Source: Prochloron didemni P4-Papua_New_Guinea (GTDB taxonomy: Bacteria > Cyanobacteriota > Cyanobacteriia > Cyanobacteriales > Prochloraceae). From it: 32,500 nucleotides of DNA. The notes under the pieces are model-generated. The model was given only the letters and a program-made list of their open reading frames with translations, made no database searches and had not been told where the DNA came from. The position numbers and the translations under genes are program-made. The DNA lies in contig JH610876.1 of assembly GCA_000252485.1 (NCBI GenBank), positions 1 to 32,500 of the forward strand. Reading direction: 5' to 3'. Below are positions 1,512-32,500 of the stretch, piece after piece (the first letter of the stretch is position 1; the number at the start of each line of letters is the position of its first letter).

Positions 1512-4067
1512 ATGAATAAACAAAAACTATACGAACCACCCTACTTTGTTGGCGGCAGTATGCCTGGGTCCGAGCCTAGTTACGTTCCCCGACAGGCGGA
1601 CCGAGAACTCTATGATGCATTGACCCTGGGAGAATTTTGCTACGTTTTCAGCCCCCGCCAGACGGGGAAGTCCAGTTTGCTGGTCAGAACCAAACAACGC
1701 CTGTTGGCGGAAGGTATTGCTTGTGCCGAACTAGATTTAATGGATATTAGCAGTAAGCATCTTTCCTTAGAACAGTGGTATGGCAGTATTTTCCGCAATC
1801 TCGTCCGGGGTTTTGGCCTCTCGGATCGGTTCAACTGGTGGAACTGGTGGCGACAGCATTCTTCCCTTGCCCCGGTAAAACGCTTGAGTGTATTTATTGA
1901 AGAAATTGTACTCAAATACGTCAAGGAAGACCTGGTTATTTTAGTAGATGAAATCGATAGTGCGGTAGGTTTAAACTTTTCCTTTGAATATTTTTTGCGT
2001 TTTATCCGTTCTTGTTACGAGCAACGAGCAAACAATAAAGACTATAGAAGATTAACTTTTGCTTTATTTGGCGTGGCCACTACCAAGGATTTAATTAGAA
2101 ATAAGAAACGGAGTCCATTTCCCTTCTGTCGCCAGATAAAATTAAATGCTTTTAGTCGAGATGAGGTAGAGTTTTTAACTCGCCTTTTGGCAGAAAGATT
2201 CAAAAATCAGCAACTAGCTGTGGATGAAATACTGGTTTGGACTGGGGGGCAACCTTTTTTGACTCAAAAACTATGTCAACTGATAGAACATACAGAAGAA
2301 CCCATCGCCCCCAGTACTGATGCAGATTATATGGAATCTGTAGTGCGATCGCAAATAATTGAAAATTGGTTTGCCCGAGATGTACCACCCCATTTACGCA
2401 GTATTAAAAACCGTCTCGATCAGAATATGCGGTTGCTCAAACTCTATCAACAACTTTTAGAACAAGGAGAAATACCAGCCAATAACAGTCAAGAACAATT
2501 AGAATTAATTATCTCAGGCTTGGCTGTGGAAATTGATTCCGAACGAGGGTCTTATTTACGAATTTATAATTCTATTTATAGCGAAGTTTTTCATGAAAGT
2601 TGGGTGAAAACAGAATTGACTAAACGGCGCTACTATACTATTTCCTTACCAGTGTGGTTGCGTTGGCAGGGATTGGCTGCAGGAGCTGCCATCCTGGTTA
2701 TGGCAGCTGTGCTGGGGATTCGGTCTTTATTACCCCAGTCTTGCGGAACCGACCAAGAATGGAGAGGAAGTAAGTGCAAATCTATTCATTCCCAGCCAAC
2801 CCAAACTCCCAGCCCTACCGCTTCATCTCCTGTACTGGAAAGGTTAAGCAGCGGAGAAAGGCGACTTTTGCGTTACAAAGCTAATTTAGACGGTACTAAC
2901 GGGACAAAAGCTTTCAAAGCTGGGAAATATGAAGAGGCGATCGCTTTCTTTAGCAAAGCAGTTCAAGGCGATCGCCGGGATCCAGAAGTTCAAATTTACC
3001 TCAACAATGCCATTGCTCTTCAAAACAGTCTTAACAATGGATTGACTCCTTTTACTTTAGCAGTGGTAGTTCCTGTAGATGGAGATGCCACTTCGGCGGA
3101 AGAAATATTGCGAGGAGTGGCAGATGCCCAAACAGAATTTAACCATGGTGGAGGATTAAACGGTCGCTTATTGACAATAACCATCGTCAACGACGGCAAC
3201 GACCCTGAGGTAGCCGCTGAAGTAGGAGCGGAATTAGGGCAAAATGAAGCTATTTTAGGAGTCATTGGTCACAACTCAGCCAATGCCAGTTTAGCCGCAC
3301 GAACTGCATACGAAAGAGCAGGTATAGCCATGGTTTCTCCCACTACCAGCATCCAGGATTCTGCTGACAAAGTAGCTGACAAAGTATTCGTTCCCATCTT
3401 GCCTTCCGCAGCAGAATCTATAGCCAAACTAGCAGAATATGGCAAGCAAATAGGAATAGAAAAAATAGCTGCCTTCTACGATTTTGCCGAGAGTTCTAGT
3501 TTAGAACAGCCTTTAATCCAACATTGGGGCAATGGATTGGTTAAGCAAATAAATCTCAGCGATCCAGATCCCAACTTCAATCTAGCCAGTGAGGTACAGG
3601 CCCTTCAAGGAGAAGTAGATGCCATCTTGCTTTTACCCAACCCCAAATCTATATCTGTGGCTATTGCCACTGCAGTAGAAAATAGCAAACTTCCTTCAGA
3701 AGCAAAACTGCAATTATTGGGCAATAAAACACTTTACACCCCGATAACTTTAACTAATGGAGGTAATGCAGTAGTAGGAATGGTTCTCGCTGTTCCTTGG
3801 TTTGGGGAAAATGCCTATGGGGAAACCGCAGCAAAAAGATGGTTGGGAAGAGTTAGTTGGCGTACCGGTACTAGCTATAACGTCACTAAAGCTTTAATTG
3901 AAGCTTTATCGGAAGATGCCACTCCCAGTACTGTGTTGAATAACCTTAAGAATAGATTGGTAGAGGGGGATGGCTTGGAACCTATTTTAGTTAAAGCGGG
4001 TAGAGGAAAAAACACACCTCAAGGAAGTCAATTTACTTTCCTGCCAGTGGAAGAGGGAGAAAACTAA
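1512..4067 (+). CDS. AAA-like ATPase / TM / TPR / periplasmic-binding receptor fusion
   Basis: A large multidomain protein of about 851 residues from the ATG at 1512; a TTG at 1464 would add 16 residues and is less convincing. Residues about 20-300 form a cyanobacterial AAA-like domain (AAA_35 type): Walker A SPRQTGKSS near 47-55 and Walker B VILVDEIDS near 140-148. A helical/winged segment follows, ending in ESWVKTELTKRRYY. One membrane span is at about 387-407 (GLAAGAAILVMAAVLGI). Outside it comes a Ser/Thr/Pro linker, one TPR-like unit (KAFKAGKYEEAIAFF, about 465) and, from about 513 to the end, a type I periplasmic-binding fold like branched-chain amino-acid receptors (FTLAVVVPVDG, GVIGHNSANAS). 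Inferred topology is a cytosolic ATPase with an extracytoplasmic ligand sensor, that is, a receptor-like signalling ATPase. Its ligand and output are unknown. The last ~120 bp recur at 6308-6453. Confidence 0.85.
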   Translation: MNKQKLYEPPYFVGGSMPGSEPSYVPRQADRELYDALTLGEFCYVFSPRQTGKSSLLVRTKQRLLAEGIACAELDLMDISSKHLSLEQWYGSIFRNLVRGFGLSDRFNWWNWWRQHSSLAPVKRLSVFIEEIVLKYVKEDLVILVDEIDSAVGLNFSFEYFLRFIRSCYEQRANNKDYRRLTFALFGVATTKDLIRNKKRSPFPFCRQIKLNAFSRDEVEFLTRLLAERFKNQQLAVDEILVWTGGQPFLTQKLCQLIEHTEEPIAPSTDADYMESVVRSQIIENWFARDVPPHLRSIKNRLDQNMRLLKLYQQLLEQGEIPANNSQEQLELIISGLAVEIDSERGSYLRIYNSIYSEVFHESWVKTELTKRRYYTISLPVWLRWQGLAAGAAILVMAAVLGIRSLLPQSCGTDQEWRGSKCKSIHSQPTQTPSPTASSPVLERLSSGERRLLRYKANLDGTNGTKAFKAGKYEEAIAFFSKAVQGDRRDPEVQIYLNNAIALQNSLNNGLTPFTLAVVVPVDGDATSAEEILRGVADAQTEFNHGGGLNGRLLTITIVNDGNDPEVAAEVGAELGQNEAILGVIGHNSANASLAARTAYERAGIAMVSPTTSIQDSADKVADKVFVPILPSAAESIAKLAEYGKQIGIEKIAAFYDFAESSSLEQPLIQHWGNGLVKQINLSDPDPNFNLASEVQALQGEVDAILLLPNPKSISVAIATAVENSKLPSEAKLQLLGNKTLYTPITLTNGGNAVVGMVLAVPWFGENAYGETAAKRWLGRVSWRTGTSYNVTKALIEALSEDATPSTVLNNLKNRLVEGDGLEPILVKAGRGKNTPQGSQFTFLPVEEGEN

Positions 4068-4101: not shown

Positions 4102-5277
4102 ATGTCTGGTTTACAAAAACTAATCGTCAGAAACTACCGTTCCCTGGAACATGTAGAAGTAAATCCACAAAAAAACAATGTATTATTTGGTCCCAATGGT
4201 TCCGGTAAAACAACTTTTCTGGATGCAATTTGGTTTATTAGAGACTGTGCAATTCGTGGTGTAGATGTTGCTGCATCAGATCGAAGTCATGGGATTGGTA
4301 TTCTCTGGGATCGAGCGGAACCCGGTGCGTCCATTTCCATCGAGCTAGAAACTGCACGAGCAAATTATAGCCTTAGTTTTGGTTTGGAGTCCGGCAGAAT
4401 TGAGTCCTATGTGGGAGAAAAGCTAACAGCAAAAAACAGCGATCGCATTTTAATAAATCGTATTATTGGCAGCAATAAAGCAAGTTTTTTGAGTTCGGAA
4501 ACGAACAAATTTGTTTCGGTGGCTCTCCGAGAACCTCAAAAACTTGCTCTAAACCGCTATCTTGATTTTGAAAATAATGCTTTGGAAGCTGCAGAAGTGG
4601 ACGAACTATTGCGTTATACTCGAAAATACAACACACGTTCTGCAGATATTTATGGCCTCCGAACCTACGGATCTGCCTCGGATTCCCATCAGCATTTATA
4701 CCACCGATGTGAAAATTTATGGTCGGTGGTTCGGAATCTAAAAGAGAAGCGAGAACTGGGTGAAAACAGCTACGATACCATCATGCAATTCATGCAGAAA
4801 AGCTTTCCCAGATTTGATAAAATTTATCTTGAGTCCCAAGGTGCTAACAATGTCTATGGCAGTTTCATTGAAAAAGATCGTCAAGAACCCATTAAGGCTT
4901 CTGGAGTTTCCGATGGTCACTTACAGCTTCTGATTCATCTAACTGCTTTATTCTCTGAAGGCGATCGCTCAACTTTAATTCTTCTGGACGAACCTGAAAT
5001 ATCTCTTCATCCCTATGCCTTAGCCACTCTAGCTGAAGCAGTAAATGAAGCAGTTGCTAACTGGAATAAACAGGTTTTTATTGCCACCCATTCTCCCGTT
5101 TTAATTAGCCAATTTGATATAGAAAATATTATTGCTACCGAAACTGGTTCCTACGGTCAAACAATGATGCAGCGAGTCAGCGAGATGAGGGAAATACAGG
5201 ATTTATTGGCTGAATATCCCCTAGGTTCCCTTTATATGGCTGAACTGATTGCGCCTCAAAGTAAATTGAAGGTATAG
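4102..5277 (+). CDS. ABC/RecF-like AAA_21 ATPase (OLD-like, TOPRIM-partnered)
   Basis: A 391-residue ATPase of the AAA_21/RecF-SMC type. Walker A FGPNGSGKTT is at residues 29-38, preceded by the typical LIVRNYRSLEHVEV strand. An ABC-signature-like SGVSDGHLQLL lies near 266, Walker B LILLDEPEISLHP near 292 and a switch histidine in ATHSP near 329. No TOPRIM domain is fused to the C-terminus. Instead the next gene encodes a separate TOPRIM-like protein. ATPase/TOPRIM pairs of this kind (OLD-family, AbiL-, RloAB- or PARIS-like) commonly act in phage defence by an ATPase sensor releasing or activating a nuclease; that role here is inferred from arrangement. The start codon has a heptamer array in place of a Shine-Dalgarno. 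HIP1 octamers occur inside the gene (about 4439 and 4960), so it is not compositionally foreign by that measure. Confidence 0.85.
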   Translation: MSGLQKLIVRNYRSLEHVEVNPQKNNVLFGPNGSGKTTFLDAIWFIRDCAIRGVDVAASDRSHGIGILWDRAEPGASISIELETARANYSLSFGLESGRIESYVGEKLTAKNSDRILINRIIGSNKASFLSSETNKFVSVALREPQKLALNRYLDFENNALEAAEVDELLRYTRKYNTRSADIYGLRTYGSASDSHQHLYHRCENLWSVVRNLKEKRELGENSYDTIMQFMQKSFPRFDKIYLESQGANNVYGSFIEKDRQEPIKASGVSDGHLQLLIHLTALFSEGDRSTLILLDEPEISLHPYALATLAEAVNEAVANWNKQVFIATHSPVLISQFDIENIIATETGSYGQTMMQRVSEMREIQDLLAEYPLGSLYMAELIAPQSKLKV

Positions 5278-5278
5278 T

Positions 5279-5533
5279 AGTTGACAGTTGATAGTTGATA
5301 GTGGATAATTGATAGTTGATATAGCGCTCTATAGTAGGGTGGGCATTGCCCACCACAGCATCAGGAGCTGTAGTCAACATCAGTATCAATAGTCTTCTGA
5401 CTCCCTGCAGTTACAATATTCTGAAAAAACTAGATATTAAAGCAACTGGTTTTGACCGCACCCGTTGACAGTTGACAGTTGATAGTTGATAGTTGATAGT
5501 TGATAGTTGATATAGCGCTCTATAGTTTGAGAA
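5279..5533. repeat. Repeat-filled gap: two heptamer arrays, hairpin, MITE scar
   Basis: No gene is evident here. Six heptamer units (agttgat type) span 5279-5320 and seven (gttgata type) span 5464-5512; each is followed by the same tail, atatagcgctctatagt. Between them lies a perfect 8-bp-arm hairpin GGTGGGCATTGCCCACC (5338-5354), a common cyanobacterial intergenic motif. The second array ends 21 bases before the TOPRIM-like gene start. The paired array-plus-tail structure suggests a segmental duplication of the leader region. Confidence 0.85.
5443..5463. mobile_element. Right-end remnant of the 177-bp MITE family
   Basis: CAACTGGTTTTGACCGCACCC differs at two positions from the right terminus of the complete MITE at 25244-25420. 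Only the end is recognisable; the left end is absent, so this is a relic. Confidence 0.55.
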
Positions 5534-6309
5534 ATGTCCGATGCGTGTTACTACTTCAAATTCATTTTATTTGTAACAGGAAAAGGTGAGAAACAACATT
5601 TGCCCAAAATGTTTCAATCTTTATCAAAATCAGGAATTTGCTCCTTTTCTGTAGAAGAATTCGTGGCCCAGCGTCGGCCAATTACATCGCCGAAACGAAT
5701 CGCACGGATGGTAGAAGTCAGAAACTTCCCAATCGGGACTTTGAAGAAATTGGTATCCCAGCAAGGCGATATATTCAAGCAAATCCATGTTATCGAGTTA
5801 TCTTAATTGACGATCTTGAAGGAATTAGTGAAGTAGAAGCGATCGCAACCTTTAACCGTTATCGAAAAGCGCTAGATATGGGTTTGGGAAAGCACAAAGG
5901 GCTTGCTTCAGTTCACTTTCTAGTCAATATGCTTGAAGCTTATTTTTTTGCAGATTCAGATGCTCTCAATCTAGCATTAAATCTCGATCCACCTGTTGAT
6001 TTTGATAATGGTGATGTAGAAACAATAAAACATCCTAAAAACAAACTCAAGGAGATTTTTCCAGCTTATAGGGAAACCGAACATCCCGGTTTGGTTTTGG
6101 ATTTGCTGGATCTGGATGTTGTTCTCTCCAATCCTGATTATTGTGCATCCCTCAGAACCTGTGTTAAATGGATTGTCCATCGAATCGAGACTTATGCCGA
6201 TGGCGAATACTTGAAAAAACTTGATTTTGAGGGACGCTTCCACCTCACAACAGGCAAACTTTATGATGTGTCCGCCAATCAATTAACCGGGGAGTATCAA
6301 GTTTTGTGA
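5534..6309 (+). pseudogene. TOPRIM-like DUF4276-type gene, broken by a -1 frameshift
   Basis: The N-terminal part, MSDACYYFKFILFVTGKGEK onward, is open from 5534 in one frame through RRPITSPKRIARMV. The continuation, GRSQKLPNRDFEEIGIPARR and VILIDDLEG, lies in the -1 frame and runs to the stop at 6307-6309. Joining the two near 5710-5716 gives a continuous protein of about 258 residues, consistent with loss of one base (atggtagaagt where atggtaggaagt would keep frame). The first strand plus GKGEK and the later ILIDDLE fit the acidic positions of a TOPRIM fold, although the usual first Glu position is Thr. It would be the nuclease-like partner of the ATPase upstream. Either the pair is inactivated, or this is a sequencing error or recoding; the sequence alone cannot separate these. 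Confidence 0.7.
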
Positions 6310-6453
6310 ATAACCTCAAGAATAGATTGGTAGAGGGCGATCCCGCAGGGCCGCTCTTAGCGATCGCCTTGAACCTATTTTAGTTAAAGCGGGTAGAGGA
6401 AAAAACACGCCTCAAGGAAGTCAATTTACTTTCCTGCCGGTGGAAGAGGGAGA
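6308..6453 (+). pseudogene. Second copy of the 3' end of the AAA/receptor fusion gene
   Basis: This stretch repeats 3938-4060, the last codons of the fusion gene, with few substitutions (for example LVEGD, LEPILVKAGRGK, GSQFTFLPVEEG). It carries an insertion of about 25 bp around 6340-6368 containing a palindromic ccgcaggg motif and a HIP1 octamer. The duplicate begins exactly where the TOPRIM-like gene stops, so the ATPase/TOPRIM pair lies between two copies of the same gene end. Confidence 0.9.
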
Positions 6454-6472
6454 TAGGATGCGATGAACACAG

Positions 6473-6719: not shown

Positions 6720-6787
6720 GTTTTTTGGAATTTTTGAGGATGGTGCAAGATCTGAGTATAATAGTTTTTAGAACTTTTGAGGGTTAT

Positions 6788-7717
6788 ATGGCTGAAAGAA
6801 GAATGGGCTTGCTCCCAATCAAAGGTTGTGACAATTCCAATCGCAGTGGTGATGTAATTTTTGTTCACGGACTGGGAGATCATCCCATAACAACATGGTA
6901 TCCAAATCCACAAGAGATAAAAAAGGAAGTGGATACAGATGAATTTTGGACGGAAAAGTTACCCAATCTAAATTTTTGGCCTAATTGGCTGGGAGAATAT
7001 AGATCCGATCTTGGTATTTGGTCTTACGGCTATGAAGCTATGCCTTTTCTGGAAGACACTCCTTTAGCAAAAGTCCCAGCAATAGGACAGCAAATACCCA
7101 CTGGTAAAGCTTCTCCTATTTTAGATCAAGCTAGCGAACTCCTCGAACTTTTGCAACAAAGAGATATTCTTCAGCGACCTCGAATTTTTGTCACTCATAG
7201 TTTAGGTGGTTTAATTGTTAAAGAGACGCTTGATTCTGCTTACGATGATTTCAACAGTAACCCGAAAATGAAACAGATTATCGGGCAGACTAAAGGGGTT
7301 GTTTTTTTAGCAACTCCTCATCAGGGTTCAGATTTAGCTAATTTCAAGGAACTATTAGCTCGAACTGTAAAAGCTTTCCGTCTTCTCAAAGAAAACGTTA
7401 TTCTTAATGAACTTCGCTCGGATAACATTAATACTCAGTTGTATAAAATGGGTAAATGGTATAGCGGCAATGCTCAAGTTTTAGCAATTGAAACAAAAAC
7501 ATTTTACGAAACTGAAGAGACGGAAATTCCAGCAATAGGAAAGCAAATAGTTGTAGATCGTTACAGTAGCGATCCAAATGTAGGCAGTAGACCCACTGCC
7601 GTAAATGGAGCAGATCATTTTACTATTGCTAAACCCCAAAATCAAAGTAGTGTTGTTTATATTGGGGTCAAAGAATTAATTGATGAGTATTTACCTATAA
7701 AAAAAATCAAAACCTAA
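6788..7717 (+). CDS. SERAC1-like alpha/beta hydrolase, N-terminal part of an NLR-like protein
   Basis: About 309 residues from the ATG at 6788, chosen because GAGGG lies four bases upstream; ATG 6740 and TTG 6725 are weaker alternatives. It is an alpha/beta-hydrolase of SERAC1 type: oxyanion-hole region VIFVHGLGDHP near residues 23-33, nucleophile elbow THSLGGLI near 136-143 with Ser as nucleophile, FLATPHQGSDLA further on, and a candidate catalytic His in GADHFTIAKP near 277. The frame ends at TAA 7715, ten bases after an A8 tract. In the -1 frame the reading continues without a stop into the NB-ARC gene. Hydrolases of this kind serve as N-terminal effectors in bacterial and fungal NLR-like proteins. 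Here it is either split from its ATPase or joined to it by frameshifting. Substrate (lipid or ester) is unknown. Confidence 0.85.
   Translation: MAERRMGLLPIKGCDNSNRSGDVIFVHGLGDHPITTWYPNPQEIKKEVDTDEFWTEKLPNLNFWPNWLGEYRSDLGIWSYGYEAMPFLEDTPLAKVPAIGQQIPTGKASPILDQASELLELLQQRDILQRPRIFVTHSLGGLIVKETLDSAYDDFNSNPKMKQIIGQTKGVVFLATPHQGSDLANFKELLARTVKAFRLLKENVILNELRSDNINTQLYKMGKWYSGNAQVLAIETKTFYETEETEIPAIGKQIVVDRYSSDPNVGSRPTAVNGADHFTIAKPQNQSSVVYIGVKELIDEYLPIKKIKT
7699..7705 (+). other. Candidate -1 slippery heptamer A AAA AAA
   Basis: Zero-frame codons are ATA AAA AAA ATC AAA ACC TAA, so A AAA AAA sits in the exact phase used for -1 slippage. After the shift the frame reads through NQNLKYLQVQ and a Glu/Gln-rich linker into LLGREQEIEVIKN, the canonical entry to an NB-ARC domain. 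I see no strong stimulatory hairpin or upstream Shine-Dalgarno. A plain indel in an eight-A run is the simpler alternative. Confidence 0.5.
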
Positions 7718-7851
7718 AATATCTTCAAGTACAACCAACAGCGATAGAAAAACAAGAAGAAGATGAAGGTGGGCAACAAGAAAAGCAGGAATTAGCGAAA
7801 ATTCCTTCTCCAAGCTATATTGAACTTTTAGGCCGTGAGCAAGAAATTGAG

Positions 7852-8844
7852 GTGATTAAGAATGTTTTAGAAGATCCAACAAGCAAACGTTTAGTAGCAA
7901 TTACTGGACTGGGAGGCAATGGTAAAACTTCTTTAGCTATTGAAGCGGCAAAATCCTTTAAGCAAATGGGTTTTCAAAACATTGTATGGTACACAGTGCC
8001 AGCAAAACGAAATGATACTTCTATAACTTTCCATACTATCCTTGAGGAGATTGCCAATCAATTAGGAACACTAGAAGTTCCTATTATTAAAGCTGAGGAG
8101 TTAAAAAGAAAAACCCGTGAGGTGCTATCTAATACACGAGTTCTGATAGTGTTAGATAACATGGATACTTCCGAGGAACCTCAAAATGAGATTGCTGAAA
8201 AGCTATGCTCAATTTTAGGTAAGAGCAAAGTTTTGTTTACCAGTCGCCATCGTTTTCAAACTTTAGGAGTCGATGTTTTTGAGCGCTATTTACAAGGTTT
8301 AGACGCAGAACAATCTATCAAGTTAATGGAGCAAACTGCTCAAGAAAGAAATATATCTAATTTGGATTCCAACAATGCCCAATCGCTGCTGAAACTAACT
8401 GGTAATAGGAAAACAGGCTATTTACCTTTAGCTTTGAAGTTGGTAACAGGTCAACTCCAAAATAAAAGCCCGTTAGAAATTGCAAGGAGCTTAGAAAGTG
8501 TTACTGTAAATACGACAGACCTAGAGCCTGACAATAAAAATATTTTTCACAAGTTTTGGTGGCATATCTATTTCCCATCTTTCAAGATACTATCCAAATC
8601 AGAACTTGATTTGATGTTTTTTATAGCAGGATTAACGGAACAAGAAGGTACTACGCAAGATAGACTTCTACATATGACGAGAGAAACATTAACAGAAAAG
8701 CAATTTACGCAAGCCATTAATAGGACTTGGTGTTTGTGTTTGTTGGAAAAGGAACGATATGGCAAACAACGTTATTATTTGCATATGTTGACCAGTAAAT
8801 TTTTCAAAACAATTCTAGCCTATGCAGGGAGGATAAATCAATGA
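7852..8844 (+). CDS. NB-ARC STAND NTPase
   Basis: The open frame from GTG 7852 gives 330 residues, but the domain clearly begins earlier: LLGREQEIEVIKN is encoded from about 7825, and that frame stays open back to 7687. Walker A GLGGNGKTSLA is at 19-29, Walker B VLIVLDNMD near 96-104, a sensor-like VLFTSRHR near 126-133 and the GLPLAL-type motif as GYLPLALKL near 190. These are hallmarks of the NB-ARC switch ATPases of NLR immune receptors and of bacterial STAND regulators and defence proteins. A winged-helix-like C-terminal part is plausible. It overlaps the TPR gene by ATGA. The gene therefore provides the switch of a hydrolase/NB-ARC/TPR system. True N-terminus depends on whether the A8 tract is slippery or a mutation. 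Confidence 0.88.
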   Translation: MIKNVLEDPTSKRLVAITGLGGNGKTSLAIEAAKSFKQMGFQNIVWYTVPAKRNDTSITFHTILEEIANQLGTLEVPIIKAEELKRKTREVLSNTRVLIVLDNMDTSEEPQNEIAEKLCSILGKSKVLFTSRHRFQTLGVDVFERYLQGLDAEQSIKLMEQTAQERNISNLDSNNAQSLLKLTGNRKTGYLPLALKLVTGQLQNKSPLEIARSLESVTVNTTDLEPDNKNIFHKFWWHIYFPSFKILSKSELDLMFFIAGLTEQEGTTQDRLLHMTRETLTEKQFTQAINRTWCLCLLEKERYGKQRYYLHMLTSKFFKTILAYAGRINQ

Positions 8845-10214
8845 TAGAAAATAATGTAATAAATAGAATACCTCAAGGATTGCAGGATGTAAAAAATTTT
8901 AAATATTTACAAGAAGAATATCGTAATGGATTGACCGATGAGGAAAGAAAATTGATTGACCTTGAGCTTGAAACAATGTTTAATCCTGAAGAATTACATG
9001 AGATTCAGGAAAAACTAAAGCGATTATTCAGAAACTATAATGAGTATATTAAACCAACGATTATCAAAACATATAATGAATTTTCTCAAGAGCATAATCG
9101 CTATCTGGATCCTAAGTTTTCTAAAAAGGCTACCGAATCTTCTATTGAAACCCAGTCAAATTCAGAAAAGAAAGCTCTGGATTTTTTCCAAACTGAGCTA
9201 AACAATATTAAATTAGCTCTTAGCTATGCCAAAGAAGAACAGCAGTGGCAAAAAATTATTGAAATTAGCGAAAGTCTGCAAAGATTTCTGAGACTCCAAA
9301 CTTATTGGGAAGATTTAGAAAAGATACAAAAAGATGCAATTTTAGCAGCTCAACAAGCTGAAGAGCGTTTGACACAAGCTAACTTACTGAATCAATATGG
9401 TGAGTTACAGCGCTTACTAAGGAAAGCAGACGAGGGAATAGAAAAATGCGAGGAAAGCAAGCGCATTTTTCAAGAATTAAACCACGAATATGGTGAAGCC
9501 AAAGCTTTATATAATTTAGGTTATCTTAACCGTTCGGTAGGCAATTGGGACAAGTCGGCTGAAGCTTTTGAGGGTTCGTTGAAACTATTTAGGAAAGTAG
9601 AGAAAAGTCAAAATTTAGATCTAGACGAAGAGATAGCAGAAGCACTTGATGGTTTGGGTCTAATTTACACCAGACAAGAAAGATTAGAAAGTGCTAAAAA
9701 AGTTTTACTAGAGAGTCTCAATATCAAAAACAAACTTAACAATCGATTTTTAATAAGTAAAACTACCAACAATTTGGGTAAAGTTTACATTGAACTTTAT
9801 AAAATTCAAAAACAACTCAACTTTTTAGAAGAAGCAAAAATGCTATTTGAAAAAAGTTTAGAAATCGGGCGAGAACAGAATAATCGCCAAGGACAAGGTG
9901 TTTCCCTGAATGAGCTAGGTAAAGTTCACCGCCTAATGGGAAATTATAAGAAGGCATTAGAATATTTTAATGAAAGTTTAAAAGTTAAAAAGCAAGTATC
10001 TGGTACTAAAGGTGGTGCTTCTGATCGCAATGGGGAAGGACTTACATACATGGAGATCGGTTTTTTATATCAAGAGCAGGGCAAACAAGAACAAGCACAA
10101 AATGCTTTTGAGAAGGCGATTGATAACCGCTTGAACTTTTACTCTGCTCAATATGAGGAAGTCTCTAAAATTCTTCAAGCAAATAAAACTCTAGCAATCA
10201 GGAATGATTTATGA
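8841..10214 (+). CDS. TPR-repeat protein, sensor part of the NLR-like locus
   Basis: A soluble protein of 457 residues whose ATG overlaps the TGA of the NB-ARC gene (ATGA), indicating translational coupling. The first ~150 residues are helical and charged. From about residue 150 there are tetratricopeptide units, for example AKALYNLGYLNRSVGNWDKS, EALDGLGLIYTRQERLES, GVSLNELGKVHRLMGNYKKA and EGLTYMEIGFLYQEQGKQEQ. Superstructure repeats of this kind form the C-terminal sensor in STAND proteins, so this is probably the ligand-recognition arm of a protein now encoded in pieces. The gene is AT-rich and contains no HIP1 octamer. No signal peptide or membrane span is seen. Confidence 0.85.
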   Translation: MIENNVINRIPQGLQDVKNFKYLQEEYRNGLTDEERKLIDLELETMFNPEELHEIQEKLKRLFRNYNEYIKPTIIKTYNEFSQEHNRYLDPKFSKKATESSIETQSNSEKKALDFFQTELNNIKLALSYAKEEQQWQKIIEISESLQRFLRLQTYWEDLEKIQKDAILAAQQAEERLTQANLLNQYGELQRLLRKADEGIEKCEESKRIFQELNHEYGEAKALYNLGYLNRSVGNWDKSAEAFEGSLKLFRKVEKSQNLDLDEEIAEALDGLGLIYTRQERLESAKKVLLESLNIKNKLNNRFLISKTTNNLGKVYIELYKIQKQLNFLEEAKMLFEKSLEIGREQNNRQGQGVSLNELGKVHRLMGNYKKALEYFNESLKVKKQVSGTKGGASDRNGEGLTYMEIGFLYQEQGKQEQAQNAFEKAIDNRLNFYSAQYEEVSKILQANKTLAIRNDL

Positions 10215-11495: not shown

Positions 11496-11912
11496 TTTTC
11501 TTGGTTGTTGGTTGTTTACTCTAATTGCCAGGCCGCACCGCGAAGCGTATCCCTTCGGGATCGCCCGTCCCAAATCCTTTTCAATACTTTTGCAAAAAGT
11601 ACGAAATTACTACAGCAAGAGGATTTGGGAGCGTCTCGCCATCCCCCAGACACTATAATAACACATTTTCGCTCAGTGCGAAAATTTACCTGACGGAGTT
11701 ATACCAACGAATCACTAATAGACTTTTTCAGCAAACCCTATATAGCGAGAGGGGGAAATCTCATCTGACAGTTGATAGTTGACAGTTGATAGTTGATAGT
11801 TGATAAAATAAACAAAGAAAACCAGTAGAAACATAACCCTATAAATGATGTGTATTCAGCCTTAGAGCTTGTTCGGTTCTTCTAAATCGACCAGTGTCTA
11901 AGATAAGGACAA
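11496..11912. repeat. Intergenic region with palindromes and heptamer array
   Basis: No gene is supported. There is a HIP1-like REP stretch (gcgaagcgtatcccttcggg, 11541-11560), an inverted repeat CCCAAATCCT (11569-11578) / AGGATTTGGG (11620-11629), and a hairpin TTTTCGC-TCAGT-GCGAAAA near 11665-11683. Five gttgata/gttgaca units lie at 11771-11805. Two ttggttg units at about 11501-11515 lie just upstream of the Rpn-like start. Confidence 0.75.
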
Positions 11913-12797: not shown

Positions 12798-12837
12798 CCC
12801 CACCATTTCATATTATATCGCTTCGAGCGAAATATGC

Positions 12838-12985
12838 TATAGCGCTTCGCGCTGGTGTCGTTACATGCTACATTTATACAAAAGTGCTACATCTGCTGCA
12901 TCACCTTTGTACAAAGCGAAAGGGGCATTTTTCCGATCGACCTCTTAATTGAGAGATTGTTAATTGTTCATTGGGAATTGCTATA
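12838..12985. mobile_element. MITE-like element, copy 1 (148 bp)
   Basis: It begins TATAGCGCTTCGCGCT and ends TTGCTATA, and matches 31570-31719 over its whole length. The interior contains the complementary segments acaaaagtgctac and caccTTTGTaca and the line gcgaaaggggcatttttc. No coding capacity. The second copy at 31570 is demonstrably an insertion, which supports mobility of the family. Confidence 0.8.
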
Positions 12986-15187: not shown

Positions 15188-15200
15188 GGTTGCTATATAA

Positions 15201-15228
15201 CTATCAACTGTCCACTATCAACTGTCAA
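15201..15228. repeat. Heptamer array upstream of priA
   Basis: Four units (ctatcaa, ctgtcca, ctatcaa, ctgtcaa) end about 36 bases before the priA ATG, followed by ctgctata, the same tail seen after the array at 4069-4096. Confidence 0.85.
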
Positions 15229-15263
15229 CTGCTATAAATCCATTGTTGAGTAAAATAACTCCC

Positions 15264-20617: not shown

Positions 20618-21415
20618 GTGTTTAATAAACAGTGGTTTCTCTGGTTAAGTCTATCCTCATGTTTGGTTGCTTGCAGCGTTCCTACTTTAACAAGTCAACA
20701 GCCAGAAGTAGTAAACCTAACAGTCTCAGTACCTGCCAGTTTACAAAATGCTATGAAGGCGATCGAACCCCTCTACACCAAGCAAACGCCAAACATTACC
20801 ATTACTTATAACTTTGGCTCTTCTGGTTCTTTACAGCAACAAATCCAACAGGGAGCGCCAGTAGATATTTTTATTTCAGCAGCTCCGAAACAGATGAATG
20901 CTTTGGAATCTAAGGGGCTGTTACTAGAAAAAACAAGACACAATCTTCTTGAAAATCAGATAGTTTTAGTAAGTCCTCAAGAACAAATTGATCTTGCTAA
21001 TTTTCAACAATTAAATTCTACTCAAATCAGTAAAGTAGCCATGGGCTATCCCGAAAGTGTACCAGCCGGAGAATATGCTAAGGAAGTTCTGACTACTCTT
21101 AATTTGTTCCATCGGCTCAAACCCAAGTTGATTTTTGCCAAAGATGTTCGCCAAGTTTTATATTATGTGGAAACAGGGAATGTAGATGCAGGACTGGTGT
21201 ACGCAACGGACGCAAAACTATCGAATCAAGTTAAACTAGTGGCTACCGCTCCCCCAGATTCTTACTCTCCCATTATCTACCCGGTAGCGGTATTGAAAGA
21301 TTCTCAAAACGACCATAGTGCTAAACATTTCGTCCAGTTTCTTCTGAGTGACTCAGCTAAAAAAGTGTTCGAGAGCTACGGTTTTACCATAGCGAATATA
21401 GCAGTTGACAGTTGA
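20618..21415 (+). CDS. modA: Molybdate ABC transporter substrate-binding lipoprotein
   Basis: ModA captures molybdate (or tungstate) outside the membrane and delivers it to ModBC. The 265-residue protein begins with a lipoprotein signal: WFLWLSLSSCLVACS, with lipobox LVAC and Cys19 or nearby as the lipidated residue. The mature part shows the ModA pattern: LTVSVPASLQNAMKAIEPLY, YNFGSSGSLQQQIQQGAPVD, IFISAAPKQMNALESKG, and later GYPESVPAGEYAKEVL and VETGNVDAGLVYATDA. The GTG at 20618 is needed to include the signal. The stop codon and the last two residues fall in a heptamer repeat (agttgac/agttgat, 21404-21417). The transporter gene modBC follows about 500 bp downstream. Confidence 0.93.
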   Translation: MFNKQWFLWLSLSSCLVACSVPTLTSQQPEVVNLTVSVPASLQNAMKAIEPLYTKQTPNITITYNFGSSGSLQQQIQQGAPVDIFISAAPKQMNALESKGLLLEKTRHNLLENQIVLVSPQEQIDLANFQQLNSTQISKVAMGYPESVPAGEYAKEVLTTLNLFHRLKPKLIFAKDVRQVLYYVETGNVDAGLVYATDAKLSNQVKLVATAPPDSYSPIIYPVAVLKDSQNDHSAKHFVQFLLSDSAKKVFESYGFTIANIAVDS

Positions 21416-21770
21416 TAGCTCCTTCCGTCGAATTCAAAATTCAAAATTCAAAATTCAAAATTTAATTCGTGACGAACATCTGGGCTATTATGGCAGAAAC
21501 TAGACGAGCCTTGTTACTCTTGGTTTTTAGCTTGTTGTCAATTTTAATATCAAATCTGAAAATGGTTGCTACAGATACATTAGTGAATGATTTCAGCCCA
21601 GAAACCGGGTTTCTTCTATTATTTTAAGGGTTAATGCTAAAATTTTGGAAAGAAACCCGGTTTCTCAACCACGGGATAACCTCAATCTATACTATGGTGC
21701 AATAAATTATTTGTAGCAATCATTTTTTTATTTCATATAAGATGATTGTCGAGTTATACAATAACCGATT
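21416..21770. repeat. Repeat-rich gap between modA and modBC
   Basis: No gene is supported. Four attcaaaa-type 8-bp units lie at about 21430-21463. The sequence ttttaatatcaaatctgaaa plus atggttgctaca (21540-21572) is an inverted variant of the tgtagcaa...tttgatatta end seen twice upstream. AGAAACCGGGTTTCTT (21600-21615) is inverted as AAGAAACCCGGTTTCT (about 21650-21665). Another tgtagcaatcattttttta is at 21714-21732. It looks like nested decayed MITEs. Confidence 0.7.
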
Positions 21771-21846
21771 GGTTGCTCTCACTCAATACTAAACATGTTC
21801 ATAGGCCGGTCATAGATGTACCTCATGAGTCCAAGAAACGCTATAA
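21771..21846. repeat. Short form of the dispersed element, inverse orientation
   Basis: Read on the minus strand it starts TTATAGCGTTTCTTGGACTC and ends GTATTGAGTGAGAGCAACC. It matches the outer parts of 14964-15187 but lacks the 72-bp tandem units. It is immediately followed by the ccaacaa array. Confidence 0.88.
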
Positions 21847-21853
21847 TTAAAAG

Positions 21854-21909
21854 CAAACAACCAACAACCAACAACCAACAACCAACAACCAACAACCAAC
21901 AACCAACAA
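21854..21909. repeat. Heptamer array (ccaacaa)7 before modBC
   Basis: Seven perfect ccaacaa units preceded by one caaacaa. The array ends eight bases before the ATG I prefer for modBC. The frame is open through it from 21816, giving an Asn/Gln/Thr-rich 7-residue period that is probably not part of the mature protein. Confidence 0.95.
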
Positions 21910-21917
21910 CCAATCTA

Positions 21918-23786
21918 ATGGAAGATTTATCTCCCTTATGGATTTCCCTCAAAACTGCTTGCTTCGCTACCATCTTTGCCTTTTTTCTCGGAATTACAGC
22001 AGCAGGCTGGATGCTTGTCTATCAAGGAAAAGGGAAAGGAATCATGGACGGTATCTTGACACTTCCTTTAGTGTTACCCCCCACAGTAGTTGGTTTTTTG
22101 TTATTATTATTACTAGGCAGAAATAGCCCAGTAGGACAAATGTTGAGGCAATGGGGAATTTCTGTTATCTTCTCCTGGCCCGCAACTGTTATTGCTGCTA
22201 CCGTAGTTGCCTTTCCCTTGATGTATAAAACCGTACTGGGAGCATTCAAACAAGTAGATGGGGATTTAATTAACTGCGCCCGTACCTTGGGGGCTTCGGA
22301 AACTCGAATATTTTGGCAGATATTGCTACCCCTAGCTTGGCCGGGAGTTATGGCCGGCACTATTCTGGCTTTTGCCAGAGCCTTGGGAGAGTTTGGCGCT
22401 ACTTTAATGCTAGCTGGGAGTATTCCTGGCAAAACCCAAACCATCCCCATCGCTATTTTTTTTGCAGCTGAAGCCGGGAGGATGGAGGAAGCACTAATCT
22501 GGGTGTTGATGATGGTGGCCATTGCCCTGGCGGCGATCGCCGTCATTAACTATTGGTCCGATGCTGAAAACTACTCCCAAAATCGGTTAGTAAATTATTG
22601 CGCCATCTCAATCAATAGTTGGTGGTGGATTATCAGTCACTGGTTACTCAGTTGGCGCAAAACAATAACTCCCAAATCCAAAGAAGAACCAAAGAAACAA
22701 CTTACAACTCAAACCCAAGGACTGTTAGTAGATTTAAAAAAAGATTTAGGAGATAGCTTCACCCTGTCTGCCAAGTTTACTCACCAGGGTAAGCCCTTGG
22801 GAATCTTAGGACCCTCTGGTTCTGGCAAAAGTCTGACTTTGCGCTGCATTGCTGGTTTGGAAACACCAACTCAAGGTCGCATTATTTTAAACGGACGAGT
22901 TCTGTTTGATTCCCAACAGGGTATTAACGTTCCTCCTCACCAACGCCGTATTGGTTTTGTCTTTCAAAACTACGCCCTCTTTCCTCACATGAAAGTAGCT
23001 GACAACATCGGCTTTGGTCTCCACCAATTACCCAAAGCCCAAAGGAAAGAACAGGTGTGGAAATACATGGAACTCATGCAATTACAGGGGCTGGAAAACC
23101 GTTACCCTCACCAACTTTCAGGAGGACAACAACAGCGGGTAGCCTTGGCAAGAGCAATGGCGATCGCTCCAGAAACTTTGCTCTTAGATGAACCTCTTTC
23201 AGCCCTTGATACTTATTTACGCCATCGCATCGAAAAGCTATTAACTGAGGTTTTCTCTACTTATGAAGGATTCACTCTCTTCGTCACTCATAAGTTGGAG
23301 GAAGCTTACCGGGTCTGCGGTAATCTCTTGGTATTATCCCAAGGAGAAGTTATTGCCTTTGGTCCTAAAGAAGATATTTTCGAGCATCCTCCTACTTTTA
23401 GGGTAGCACAATTAACAGAGTGCAAAAACTTTTCTCGGGTTGAAATTCTTGACCATCAGAGAATTAAAGCCCTAGACTGGGGTTGTACTCTCCAAGTGGT
23501 GGAATCTGGAAGCAACCAAATTCAATATGTGGGTATACGGGCCCATCATCTCATTTTCTCCCCAGAGCCAAATCTAGAGAATACTTTTCCTTGTTGGCTA
23601 GTAACCATGAGCGAAACTCAGCATCGGGTTACCCTTTATCTAAGTTTACATGGTTTCCCCATGAATACTCACAACTACCAACTACAAGCTGAAGTCTATA
23701 AAGAAAAATGGAATAATCTTAAAGATGCCCCATTTCCATGGTACGTCCGTTTAGATCCATTTAGATTGATTTTGATGGCAAGTTGA
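21918..23786 (+). CDS. modBC: Fused molybdate ABC permease-ATPase ModBC
   Basis: Permease and ATPase are one polypeptide of about 622 residues, an arrangement known from other cyanobacteria. Residues about 1-215 are ModB: several hydrophobic spans, the EAA-type loop TLGASETRIFWQILLPLAWP, and ALGEFGATLMLAGSIPGKTQ. A linker of ~60 residues leads to ModC: Walker A GPSGSGKS near 298-305, Q-loop FVFQNYALFPHM, signature LSGGQQQRVALARA near 400, Walker B LLLDEPLSALD near 423 and switch FVTHKLEEA. The last ~120 residues form a divergent, TOBE-like end without a clear molybdate-binding Mop motif. I chose ATG 21918 (MEDLSPLWISLKTA); the frame upstream reads only through repeats. A fragment of the ModC signature/Walker B region recurs at 25103. 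Confidence 0.93.
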   Translation: MEDLSPLWISLKTACFATIFAFFLGITAAGWMLVYQGKGKGIMDGILTLPLVLPPTVVGFLLLLLLGRNSPVGQMLRQWGISVIFSWPATVIAATVVAFPLMYKTVLGAFKQVDGDLINCARTLGASETRIFWQILLPLAWPGVMAGTILAFARALGEFGATLMLAGSIPGKTQTIPIAIFFAAEAGRMEEALIWVLMMVAIALAAIAVINYWSDAENYSQNRLVNYCAISINSWWWIISHWLLSWRKTITPKSKEEPKKQLTTQTQGLLVDLKKDLGDSFTLSAKFTHQGKPLGILGPSGSGKSLTLRCIAGLETPTQGRIILNGRVLFDSQQGINVPPHQRRIGFVFQNYALFPHMKVADNIGFGLHQLPKAQRKEQVWKYMELMQLQGLENRYPHQLSGGQQQRVALARAMAIAPETLLLDEPLSALDTYLRHRIEKLLTEVFSTYEGFTLFVTHKLEEAYRVCGNLLVLSQGEVIAFGPKEDIFEHPPTFRVAQLTECKNFSRVEILDHQRIKALDWGCTLQVVESGSNQIQYVGIRAHHLIFSPEPNLENTFPCWLVTMSETQHRVTLYLSLHGFPMNTHNYQLQAEVYKEKWNNLKDAPFPWYVRLDPFRLILMAS

Positions 23787-30862: not shown

Positions 30863-30962
30863 GAGACATGAATAAATAAAAACTAGCGAGCGGCTTTTTC
30901 CTCTGCATCCTCTGCGCCTCTGCGGTTTATTATTATTTCAGATCTTGATTCAGCAACGCCAT

Positions 30963-31164
30963 CTAATGAATATAGCTGTAACGCTAGCACGACTGATAAA
31001 CTCCGCACTTTCCAGCCTTTTTTCGTAACCCTCTAATCTAATTTGCTGTCTAATTTTTCTTCAATTCGCTTCAACTCTCCTTTTGTCTCCGTGAAACCAA
31101 CGTCTACTTTCTTGTCTAAACCGAGAATTAATTCTTTCAACTCTCTAAAGTCCTTGTCTGTCAT
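30963..31164 (-). pseudogene. Broken copy A of the small coiled-coil/TM protein
   Basis: The ATG at 31164 starts MTDKDFRELKELILGLDKK, as in copies B and C, but the frame stops after 43 residues at 31033. Comparison with the intact copies shows an extra five bases (tagag) in the KLD-GYEKRL junction. The rest of the gene is recognisable to 30963 out of frame, then is lost. It also lacks part of the repeated DVGF linker. Confidence 0.88.
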
Positions 31165-31243
31165 GATTTTACTCCTGTTTACAGATACTGGCTATCATCT
31201 TTTGATTATTTTGGATTACTAGAAGCTCTTATGCGATTAAGAT

Positions 31244-31534
31244 TTAGTTGGAAAAGAATATAAGTTTAGCAAGACCACCAACAAGTCCAGCAAATCCAAT
31301 GAATATAGCTGTAACGCTAGCACGACTGATAAACTCCGCACTTGCCAGTCGTTTTTCATAACCATCTAATTTGTTGTCTAATTTTTCTTCAATTCGCTTT
31401 AACTCCACATCAATACGTTTGAACTCTCCTTTTACCTCGGCAAAACCAACATCTACTTTGGCAAAACCAACGTCTACTTTCTTGTCTAAACCGAGAATTA
31501 GTTCTTTCAACTCTCTAAAGTCTTTGTCTGTCAT
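31244..31534 (-). CDS. Small coiled-coil protein with C-terminal membrane span (copy B)
   Basis: A 96-residue protein. The N-terminal two-thirds are charged and helical (MTDKDFRELKELILGLDKKV, then DVGF units and KRIEEKLDNKLDGYEKRL), likely a coiled coil. The C-terminus is one hydrophobic span, SVTAIFIGFAGLVGGLAKLI, with FFSN at the end. This layout resembles XhlA/hemolysin-type small membrane proteins of phage and cyanobacteria, but I would not name it further. Internal KVDVGF occurs twice, showing variation in repeat number between copies. It is one of three paralogous copies in a row. The AT-rich start is preceded by gtaaaatc rather than a strong ribosome site. Confidence 0.65.
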   Translation of the reverse strand: MTDKDFRELKELILGLDKKVDVGFAKVDVGFAEVKGEFKRIDVELKRIEEKLDNKLDGYEKRLASAEFISRASVTAIFIGFAGLVGGLAKLIFFSN

Positions 31535-31569
31535 GATTTTACTTTTGTGATTGTGCTATAATTATATGA

Positions 31570-31719
31570 TATAGCGCTTCGCGCTGATGTCGTTACATAC
31601 TACATTTTTTATACAAAGGTGCTGCATCTGCTGCATCACCTTTGTACAAAGCGAAAGGGGCATTTTTCTTATTAACCTCTTAATTGTTCATTGTTAATTG
31701 TTCATTGCTCATTGCTATA
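31570..31719. mobile_element. MITE-like element, copy 2, with a visible empty site
   Basis: A 150-bp match to 12838-12985. In the paralogous copy C region the corresponding sequence at about 32270-32290 runs gctaacattatattatagca without the element, whereas here gctataattatatga and gcagcctataattgg are separated by it. TATAG occurs at both junctions, so the exact ends are ambiguous by a few bases and TATAG may be the duplicated target. Confidence 0.9.
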
Positions 31720-31746
31720 GCAGCCTATAATTGGCAACTGCAATAA

Positions 31747-31850
31747 TTATCCGTCAACTCCACGAGGAATAAAGCGAATTTCAATTCTGCGTCTGCTAGC
31801 ATTTTCTAGTGGTTCATCTGGGTCAGCTAATTTTCCTGACGGGAGATATA
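31747..31850 (-). pseudogene. OmpA-like C-terminal fragment, copy 1
   Basis: The minus strand reads LPSGKLADPDEPLENASRRR and then IEIRFIPRGVDG followed by a stop. The final R-R-x-I-E-I-R-F pattern is that of the peptidoglycan-binding OmpA/MotB C-terminal domain. Only the end of such a gene is present. It lies just upstream (in gene terms) of copy B. Confidence 0.7.
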
Positions 31851-31967
31851 ATTAGAATGCAGAATAGAAGTACTTTTGATTATTTGATACTAAAGTAATA
31901 TCTTTAGCAATCTTTTTGAAGTTATTTTTATTACTTGCAGCTCTGAAATGGGGTCAAGATTTAAGAT
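31851..31967. other. Intergenic, nothing recognised
   Basis: AT-rich sequence without ORF or clear repeat between the first OmpA-like fragment and copy C. Confidence 0.4.
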
Positions 31968-32249
31968 TTAGTTGGAAAAGAATATAAGTTTAGCAAGACC
32001 ACCAACAAGTCCAGCAAATCCAATGAATATAGCTGTAACGCTAGCACGACTGATAAACTCCGCACTTGCCAGTCTTTTTTCGTAACCATCTAATTTGTCG
32101 TCTAATTTTTGTTCAATTCGCTTCAACTCTCCTTTTATCTCAGTGAAACCAACGTCTACTTTTGCGTTTATCTCCGTCAAACCAACGTCTACTTTCTTGT
32201 CTAAACCGAGAATTAATTCTTTCAACTCTCTAAAGTCTTTGTCTGTCAT
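31968..32249 (-). CDS. Small coiled-coil protein with C-terminal membrane span (copy C)
   Basis: A 93-residue paralogue of copy B with the same ends (MTDKDFRELKELILGLDKKV and SVTAIFIGFAGLVGGLAKLI plus FFSN). The middle differs: DVGLTEINAKVDVGFTEIKG and ELKRIEQKLDDKLDGYEKRL. The strong conservation of the membrane span and N-terminus, with changes limited to the coiled-coil linker, suggests recent duplication. Function unknown; XhlA-like only by layout. It is followed upstream by an OmpA-like 3' fragment as in copy B. Confidence 0.65.
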   Translation of the reverse strand: MTDKDFRELKELILGLDKKVDVGLTEINAKVDVGFTEIKGELKRIEQKLDDKLDGYEKRLASAEFISRASVTAIFIGFAGLVGGLAKLIFFSN

Positions 32250-32313
32250 GATTTTACTTGTGTGATTGTGCTAACATTATATTATAGCAGCCTATAATTG
32301 GCAACTGCAATAA

Positions 32314-32415
32314 TTATTCTTTAACTCCAGGAGTAATAAAGCCAATTTCAATTCTGCGTCTGCTGGCATTTTCTGGTGGTTGATCTGGGTCAGCTAATTT
32401 TCCTGAAGGGAGATA
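32314..32415 (-). pseudogene. OmpA-like C-terminal fragment, copy 2
   Basis: The minus strand reads LPSGKLADPDQPPENASRRR, IEIGFITPGVKE and a stop, parallel to copy 1 with several substitutions. The usual final Arg of IEIR is Gly here. Its 5' side is cut at about 32416 by another repeat. Confidence 0.7.
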
Positions 32416-32500
32416 TATAGCGTTTCTCGCAGTTATGAGGTACAGTCTTCTTTGAGGTTTTACCTGTCTTGATGCAGTGTATCGCTATTCCCCTCCCAGG
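32416..32500. repeat. Partial dispersed element at the window edge
   Basis: tatagcgtttctcgcagttatgaggtaca resembles the start of the elements at 14964 and 21846 (tatagcatttcttggactca tgaggtaca). The remainder differs and runs off the window. It probably interrupts the OmpA-like gene. Confidence 0.5.

Follow-up and report, generated by a model that had tools for sequence, protein, structure and literature searches.

A predicted single-pass receptor of Prochloron didemni joins an AAA_35 ATPase to a sensor module shared across Cyanobacteria

What is sensed, and what is set in motion, by a protein that couples an ATPase of the cyanobacterial AAA-like class to a transport-type binding domain through one predicted membrane span? 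Such a protein is encoded near the start of contig JH610876.1 of Prochloron didemni P4-Papua_New_Guinea (GenBank assembly GCA_000252485.1), within the stretch of 32,500 nucleotides (nt; positions 1 to 32,500) analyzed here and called the window. An initial annotation, made from the sequence alone, had proposed a one-component transmembrane signaling ATPase. We favor, with moderate confidence, the reading that this protein is a single-pass receptor from a family built on an exchangeable sensor module, with output most likely produced once it assembles with an effector-carrying short AAA_35 protein encoded separately.

The architecture and family assignment of the protein leave little room for doubt. 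The open reading frame (ORF) is uninterrupted and yields 851 amino acids (aa) from its ATG or 867 aa from an upstream TTG. Both domains expected from the initial annotation were recovered by Pfam above the curated cut-offs: AAA_35 (PF14516) with E 9.9e-27 and 94 bits against 27, and Peripla_BP_6, at residues 515-787, with E 4.8e-19 and 69.7 bits against 31.7. The AAA_35 domain carries a Walker A motif (RQTGKSS, 49-55), a Walker B motif (ILVDEID, 143-149), and a GGQP motif (245-248), and the Walker A lysine (K53) and Walker B Asp-Glu pair (D146, E147) are kept, as they are without exception in 12 aligned AAA_35 domains. The sole hydrophobic stretch at threshold (Kyte-Doolittle 2.06) spans residues 422-440 of the stop-to-stop ORF, which corresponds to about 388-406 of the ATG form, and its flanks carry a net charge of +2 in the preceding 15 residues and 0 in the following 15. 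The annotated order of AAA_35, one span, a putative tetratricopeptide repeat (TPR)-like hairpin, and Peripla_BP_6 was thereby confirmed within one ORF. From the charge bias and the type of the domains, an N-in/C-out orientation is very likely, in keeping with the receptor-like topology suggested at the outset. The same layout is found in a full-length ortholog (805 aa; 63% identity over residues 11-848) on the complete chromosome of Ca. Paraprochloron terpiosi LD05. A third copy, in the 71% complete metagenome-assembled genome (MAG) SP5CPC1, is broken.

The C-terminal 427 residues were matched in at least 88 of 386 sampled genomes of the cyanobacterial phylum at E 1e-25; few candidates were scored per genome, so the counts of this survey are lower bounds. 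Many of the matches are stand-alone ORFs of about 470 aa. In addition, 46 long ORFs were collected (those listed with more than 600 aa plus loci found earlier, a sample and not a full census), and BLAST clustering of their N-termini gave five groups, named by Pfam on representatives: STAND-type ATPases (16; ATPase_2 and nSTAND1), AAA_35 (10), Ser/Thr kinases (8), CHAT (7, including L151, classed from a short N-terminus only), and caspases (5). The initial annotation holds as to layout and receptor-like topology; what it overlooked is that the sensor half recurs as a module in other proteins, where any of five partner classes may be attached. Within the window genome, three of four Peripla_BP_6 matches are fusions of span, TPR, and periplasmic-binding protein (PBP) domain, namely the window gene and two Ser/Thr kinases. 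The kinases, which carry the same sensor, are located at L092:2124-4349 (contig C239) and L093:2657-5086 (contig C480). Two unusual relatives were also recorded: L159, a giant caspase-sensor ORF of 3065 aa, and L151, whose 968-aa ORF seems to carry two sensor modules.

A span (hydropathy of at least 1.6) precedes the SxGE motif in 68 of 69 measurable rows, and caspase row L158 has no clear span near the sensor. Across 44 fused rows, the N-side flank of the span is more positive than the C-side flank (Wilcoxon p 3.4e-4). The distance from the SxG motif to the PBP start is 64-71 residues (10th to 90th percentile of rows). Two or more cysteines between span and motif were found in 12/15 STAND and 3/10 AAA_35 receptors (the window protein included), in 1/5 caspases, and in none of 8 kinases, 7 CHAT proteins, or 24 stand-alone ORFs. 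No relative turned up when viral contigs were scanned with the receptor alignment, and a plasmid scan with the whole protein returned no record with 80% coverage; the sensor half alone matched nine plasmid records, five of them with at least 80% of it covered.

On a tree of 72 sensors bearing six labels (the five classes and stand-alone), 17 class changes were required, where the possible minimum is 5 and shuffled labels average 40.5; cytosolic partners have therefore been exchanged repeatedly. The ten AAA_35 receptors account for 5 changes, at least 4 of them forced by well-supported branches, and so this cytosolic class either fused to the sensor on more than one occasion or was lost, with another class taking its place.

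By profile comparison, the AAA_35 domain is STAND-related. An hhalign comparison of 12 receptor-type AAA_35 domains with 10 STAND-type domains of sibling receptors gave a probability of 97.2% (E 4.5e-11) in an alignment that takes in Walker A, Walker B, and the GGQP region; the STAND label of this sibling group rests on Pfam matches to ATPase_2 and nSTAND1 in 2 members. Elsewhere, Pfam architectures join AAA_35 to WD40 propellers, a histidine kinase, GAF, and a response regulator with PAS, partners that fit a signaling switch.

Clustering of the neighbors of 41 fused loci revealed conserved partner genes. A second, short AAA_35 gene adjoins the receptor at 8 of the 10 AAA_35-sensor loci, which are not fully independent, as some are closely related (L144 and L145). 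In seven cases it lies upstream on the same strand (six gaps of 11-74 nt and one of 727 nt), and in one it is convergent and downstream. In the five short partners scanned, AAA_35 scores 381-462 bits, compared with 94 for the window receptor, and their N-termini contain CHAT (L132, L139, and L145), a weak HTH_26 match (L135), or nothing that Pfam detects (L154). All three CHAT partners retain the His and Cys of what we take to be the CHAT catalytic dyad motifs. Identity to scanned CHAT-AAA_35 proteins is 73% for the short partner at L143 and 97% for that at L144, which brings the loci with such a partner to at least five. The pairing also extends beyond the sensor family: with about 1.5 kb of flank, a short AAA_35 gene directly neighbors the receptor-type gene at 23 of 52 receptor-type AAA_35 loci (upstream on the same strand in 21), two of the 23 being sensor receptors already counted above. 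The window genome itself contains two adjacent pairs of receptor-type and short AAA_35 genes, together with at least three short AAA_35 genes that have no receptor-type AAA_35 ORF beside them in the stretches taken. Because short AAA_35 proteins, mostly with an effector-type N-terminus, adjoin the receptor at so many of its loci, the term one-component is probably wrong. The window protein instead appears to be the sensing member of an AAA_35 pair, with the output probably coming from the partner.

These observations suggest a mechanism. STAND proteins act by a switch-and-assembly step, and the receptor may follow that model. The periplasmic type I binding-protein domain would sense an event outside, the TPR hairpin and single membrane helix would pass the change inward, and the cytosolic STAND-like AAA_35 domain would act as a nucleotide-driven assembly switch, presumably powered by ATP. 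By analogy with the gene pairs of relatives, it would then recruit a separate short AAA_35 protein with an effector N-terminus, either a CHAT protease or a helix-turn-helix domain. We put this output route forward tentatively, at somewhat less than even confidence, and in this genome the partner would have to act in trans. A more ambitious version, which we regard as speculative and probably not correct in full, sees a cyanobacterial counterpart of death receptors: an exchangeable span-TPR-PBP ectodomain set on kinases, STAND ATPases, caspases, or CHAT, in which an outside ligand would drive co-assembly of AAA_35 with an adjacent (in this genus, unlinked) CHAT- or helix-turn-helix-AAA_35 protein and so evoke a caspase-like protease or transcription response.

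Several points weigh against the paired-receptor reading. No short AAA_35 gene is linked to the receptor at the window locus, where the contig spans only 1.5 kb upstream, or at the LD05 locus. In the small LD05 genome, only the receptor and one short AAA_35 protein score above the AAA_35 cut-off, and they are encoded about 306 kb apart. The short protein shares only 43% identity with its best match in the window genome, compared with 67% for the receptor, so that the two short proteins are not clearly counterparts and pairing in trans has to be inferred. Among solved structures, none matched AAA_35 below E 0.5. Within the window protein the TPR is a single weak hairpin at about residues 464-506, matched by phmmer to designed consensus TPRs; no Pfam TPR match was obtained at E 0.01, although TPR profiles do match several relatives. 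Predicted structures of the two halves, based on an alignment of the window protein and two related copies only, reached mean predicted local distance difference test (pLDDT) scores of 37.5 and 43.9, too poor to reveal a cleft, and no claim is built on them. Finally, pocket positions of the sensor are altered in this copy.

The nearest solved structures to the sensor are binding proteins of branched-chain amino acid ABC transporters, with a profile match to the Leu/Ile/Val-binding protein (LIVBP). At LIVBP Ser79, Thr102, and Glu226, which we take to be residues of the amino-acid pocket, the alignment places Ala590, Ser613, and Lys739, so that one of the three is kept, conservatively. The Ser79 position holds Ser in 64 of 72 family rows and in LD05, and the Glu226 position is widely varied, with Asp in 31/72 and Lys in two only, the window protein and LD05. 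The conserved Arg of an FRT stretch (64/72) is Pro628, and position 790, Asp in 69/72, is Asn in the window protein and His in LD05, whose sensor also has in-frame deletions in the altered region. An amino-acid pocket of the LIVBP type was thus not recovered in the window sensor, which is best described as a PBP-family domain and not as an amino-acid-binding protein. With Ala590 and Lys739 at the Ser79 and Glu226 equivalents and Pro628 in place of a conserved Arg, the working transport-type ligand cleft of the initial annotation is left unsupported. Judged from these residues, the ligand is probably something other than an ordinary amino acid, unless the domain functions with no small ligand at all.

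The latter case forms the first competing explanation, in which the sensor of this genus has lost small-ligand binding and now serves as a structural or protein-protein ectodomain, either constitutive or as a negative regulator. The changes at residues 590, 628, 739, and 790, the deletions in LD05, and the broken SP5CPC1 copy all speak for it; the LD05 indels, however, preserve the frame, its Ser79 position is retained, the variability of the Glu226 position implies that other receptors also depart from the amino-acid type, and the SP5CPC1 genome is incomplete. Selection was compared between the window gene and LD05 by NG86, with ratios that are approximate because dS is near saturation: dN/dS was 0.22/1.16 for the whole gene, 0.20/1.15 for the AAA_35 half, and 0.235/1.36 for the PBP half. 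Both halves look equally constrained, and the sensor appears to be under purifying selection, which disfavors plain decay. Changed pocket positions combined with purifying selection leave the ligand uncertain. We consider ligand gating in this particular copy an evenly balanced question, and the loss of small-ligand binding a serious but minority possibility.

It is unlikely that the protein is fully self-contained, a receptor ATPase that needs no AAA_35 partner, as first proposed. The intact Walker A and B motifs and the lack of a partner gene at the window and LD05 loci would suit such a protein, but they are set against the short AAA_35 genes that recur beside AAA_35-sensor and other receptor-type loci and against the further such genes of the window genome that have no receptor-type ORF seen alongside. 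Much less probable still is a true transport component whose AAA_35 half regulates uptake by an ABC transporter. The closest structures are transporter binding proteins, and stand-alone relatives are annotated by curators as "ABC transporter substrate-binding protein"; nevertheless, the window gene has no HAAT permease or ATPase gene as a neighbor, the one ABC system scanned in the window (20618-23786) pairs with a different binding family, SBP_bac_11, and the module is also carried by kinases, caspases, and CHAT proteases. A chance fusion or assembly error, conceivable in an assembly of 690 contigs with the gene near a contig end, is excluded by the full-length ortholog in the closed LD05 chromosome, one of nine further AAA_35-sensor ORFs.

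Table 1. Features of the receptor gene, with positions in the window
Feature	Position	Strand	Evidence
Whole receptor ORF, 851 aa	1512..4067	+	Open reading frame; alternative TTG start 1464; LD05 ortholog
AAA_35 STAND-like ATPase domain (predicted), residues 15-351	1554..2564	+	Pfam; invariant columns; hhalign with sibling STAND-type domains
Single predicted transmembrane helix, about residues 388-406	2673..2729	+	Hydropathy; net positive on N-terminal side
Juxtamembrane cysteine pair directly after span (SCG...SKC)	2730..2790	+	Sequence; counts in relatives
Conserved SxGE motif (446-449) and one TPR-like hairpin (about 458-506)	2838..3029	+	Conservation; phmmer to consensus TPR proteins
Peripla_BP_6 (type I periplasmic-binding fold) sensor, residues 515 to C-terminus	3054..4064	+	Pfam 515-787; profile match to Leu/Ile/Val-binding proteins

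The surroundings of the gene were also surveyed. A stretch of about 130 nt before it is well conserved with LD05 and SP5CPC1 and folds better than shuffled versions (z -2.65; 3 of 200 shuffles as good). As a regulatory RNA it was rejected, having no Rfam match and almost no covariation, and holding the start of an ORF. That ORF (MTRFIHDQ..., 1406-1477) belongs to a family with no name in Pfam or NCBIfam and reaches 136-331 aa at 8 of 11 relative loci from other genomes, the 8 being those that show the start pattern; in the window, LD05, and SP5CPC1 it is cut to 23 or 14 codons (23 in the window), and the stretch directly before the receptor gene is treated here as a putative relic. Downstream, at 4102-6460, two copies of the receptor-gene tail flank an AAA_21 ATPase gene, for which HEC-01A is the best PADLOC match, and a weak DUF4276 gene. 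The tail (3937-4060) and its imperfect copy (6307-6453) are 80% identical apart from a 23-nt extra stretch and are the only two in the genome. Neither of the two genes is present at the LD05 locus, and the segment looks like a defense cassette that was inserted with duplication of the gene tail. Short repeat arrays of the TTGATAG type occur at 767-823, 5279-5335, 5464-5526, 11766-11805, and 15192-15231, including both ends of the AAA_21 gene. Further on, at 6725-10214, a weak lipase-like protein (DUF7379/DUF676) is followed by an NB-ARC ORF and a TPR ORF overlapping by 4 nt, an arrangement suggestive of a split STAND system next to the receptor. The segment at 20618-23786 holds an SBP_bac_11 gene and then one ORF that fuses a permease (BPD_transp_1) to an ABC ATPase, a fused transporter. 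At 30961-32417 lies a block of diverged repeats (135-350 bp; 77-93% identical), from which a 157-bp stretch (31564-31719) recurs at 12832-12985.

The other receptor classes have neighbors of the kind found in conflict systems. A 125-aa gene, which from its look we take to be EACC1, precedes three caspase receptors at a distance of 4 nt; Pfam and NCBIfam gave no match for it. On the Gloeothece verrucosa plasmid Cy782203, a caspase gene and the sensor gene that overlaps it are grouped with a CU044_2847 gene. A Trypco1 gene (Pfam) is found downstream of the AAA_35 receptor L145, and a relative of it downstream of L144. The CHAT-PBP receptors L146, L149, L151, L157, L160, and L169 are preceded by a conserved gene of 214-239 aa and one of 358-399 aa; at L149, the only CHAT locus scanned, the former has no Pfam name and the latter is DUF1822. 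The STAND-PBP receptors L134, L136, L137, L138, and L141 form tandem pairs (for example, of about 1045 and 906 aa) in a conserved multi-gene unit, and most of these tandems have a further, soluble ATPase gene of about 421 aa upstream.

Overall, the family points to a defined and testable way in which chemical signals from outside could reach ATPase switches and caspase-like proteases in cyanobacteria. Such a connection is usually lacking for the STAND and CHAT proteins of bacteria, few of whose triggers are known, and the pairing of receptor and short AAA_35 genes allows a specific hypothesis on the partners of a large cyanobacterial family annotated only as AAA-like.

Fusions of caspase, membrane helix, and PBP and fusions of kinase and ANF are already in print; a literature search, with most subscription journals outside its reach, found nothing on the AAA_35-PBP fusion, the shared exchangeable module, or the AAA_35 gene (A/B) pairs. 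Kaur et al. 2020 (PMC7159879) describe cyanobacterial EACC1-caspase systems with a transmembrane helix and an extracellular PBP domain; as far as the accessible main text goes, the PBP is treated as one among many variable C-terminal domains, and AAA_35 and CHAT are absent. The window protein resembles these systems in having a cytosolic effector-side domain, a transmembrane helix, and a predicted extracellular PBP, and the caspase members L147, L153, and L161 carry the same sensor module. It differs in having AAA_35, no caspase domain by Pfam, and no EACC1-like gene alongside, the gene immediately upstream being a divergent cupin. Zhang et al. 2007 (PMC2176072) list ANF as an accessory domain of cyanobacterial Ser/Thr kinases, such as Anabaena alr0344, which by its description likewise joins a cytosolic kinase to a type I PBP-family domain; the kinases in our set have the sensor module of the window protein, which itself carries a STAND-like ATPase in place of the kinase. 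In the portion of Asplund-Samuelsson et al. 2012 (PMC3501461) available, one metacaspase-ANF_receptor protein from Cyanothece PCC 7424 is reported, which similarly sets a receptor-type ligand-binding domain on a protease but is a single protein without AAA_35. Closest in the cytosolic half are the AAA_35-WD40 and AAA_35-histidine kinase proteins, which share the receptor-type AAA_35 (mostly 40-50% identity over about residues 11-383) and end in WD40 or a histidine kinase, where the window protein carries a span and a PBP domain.

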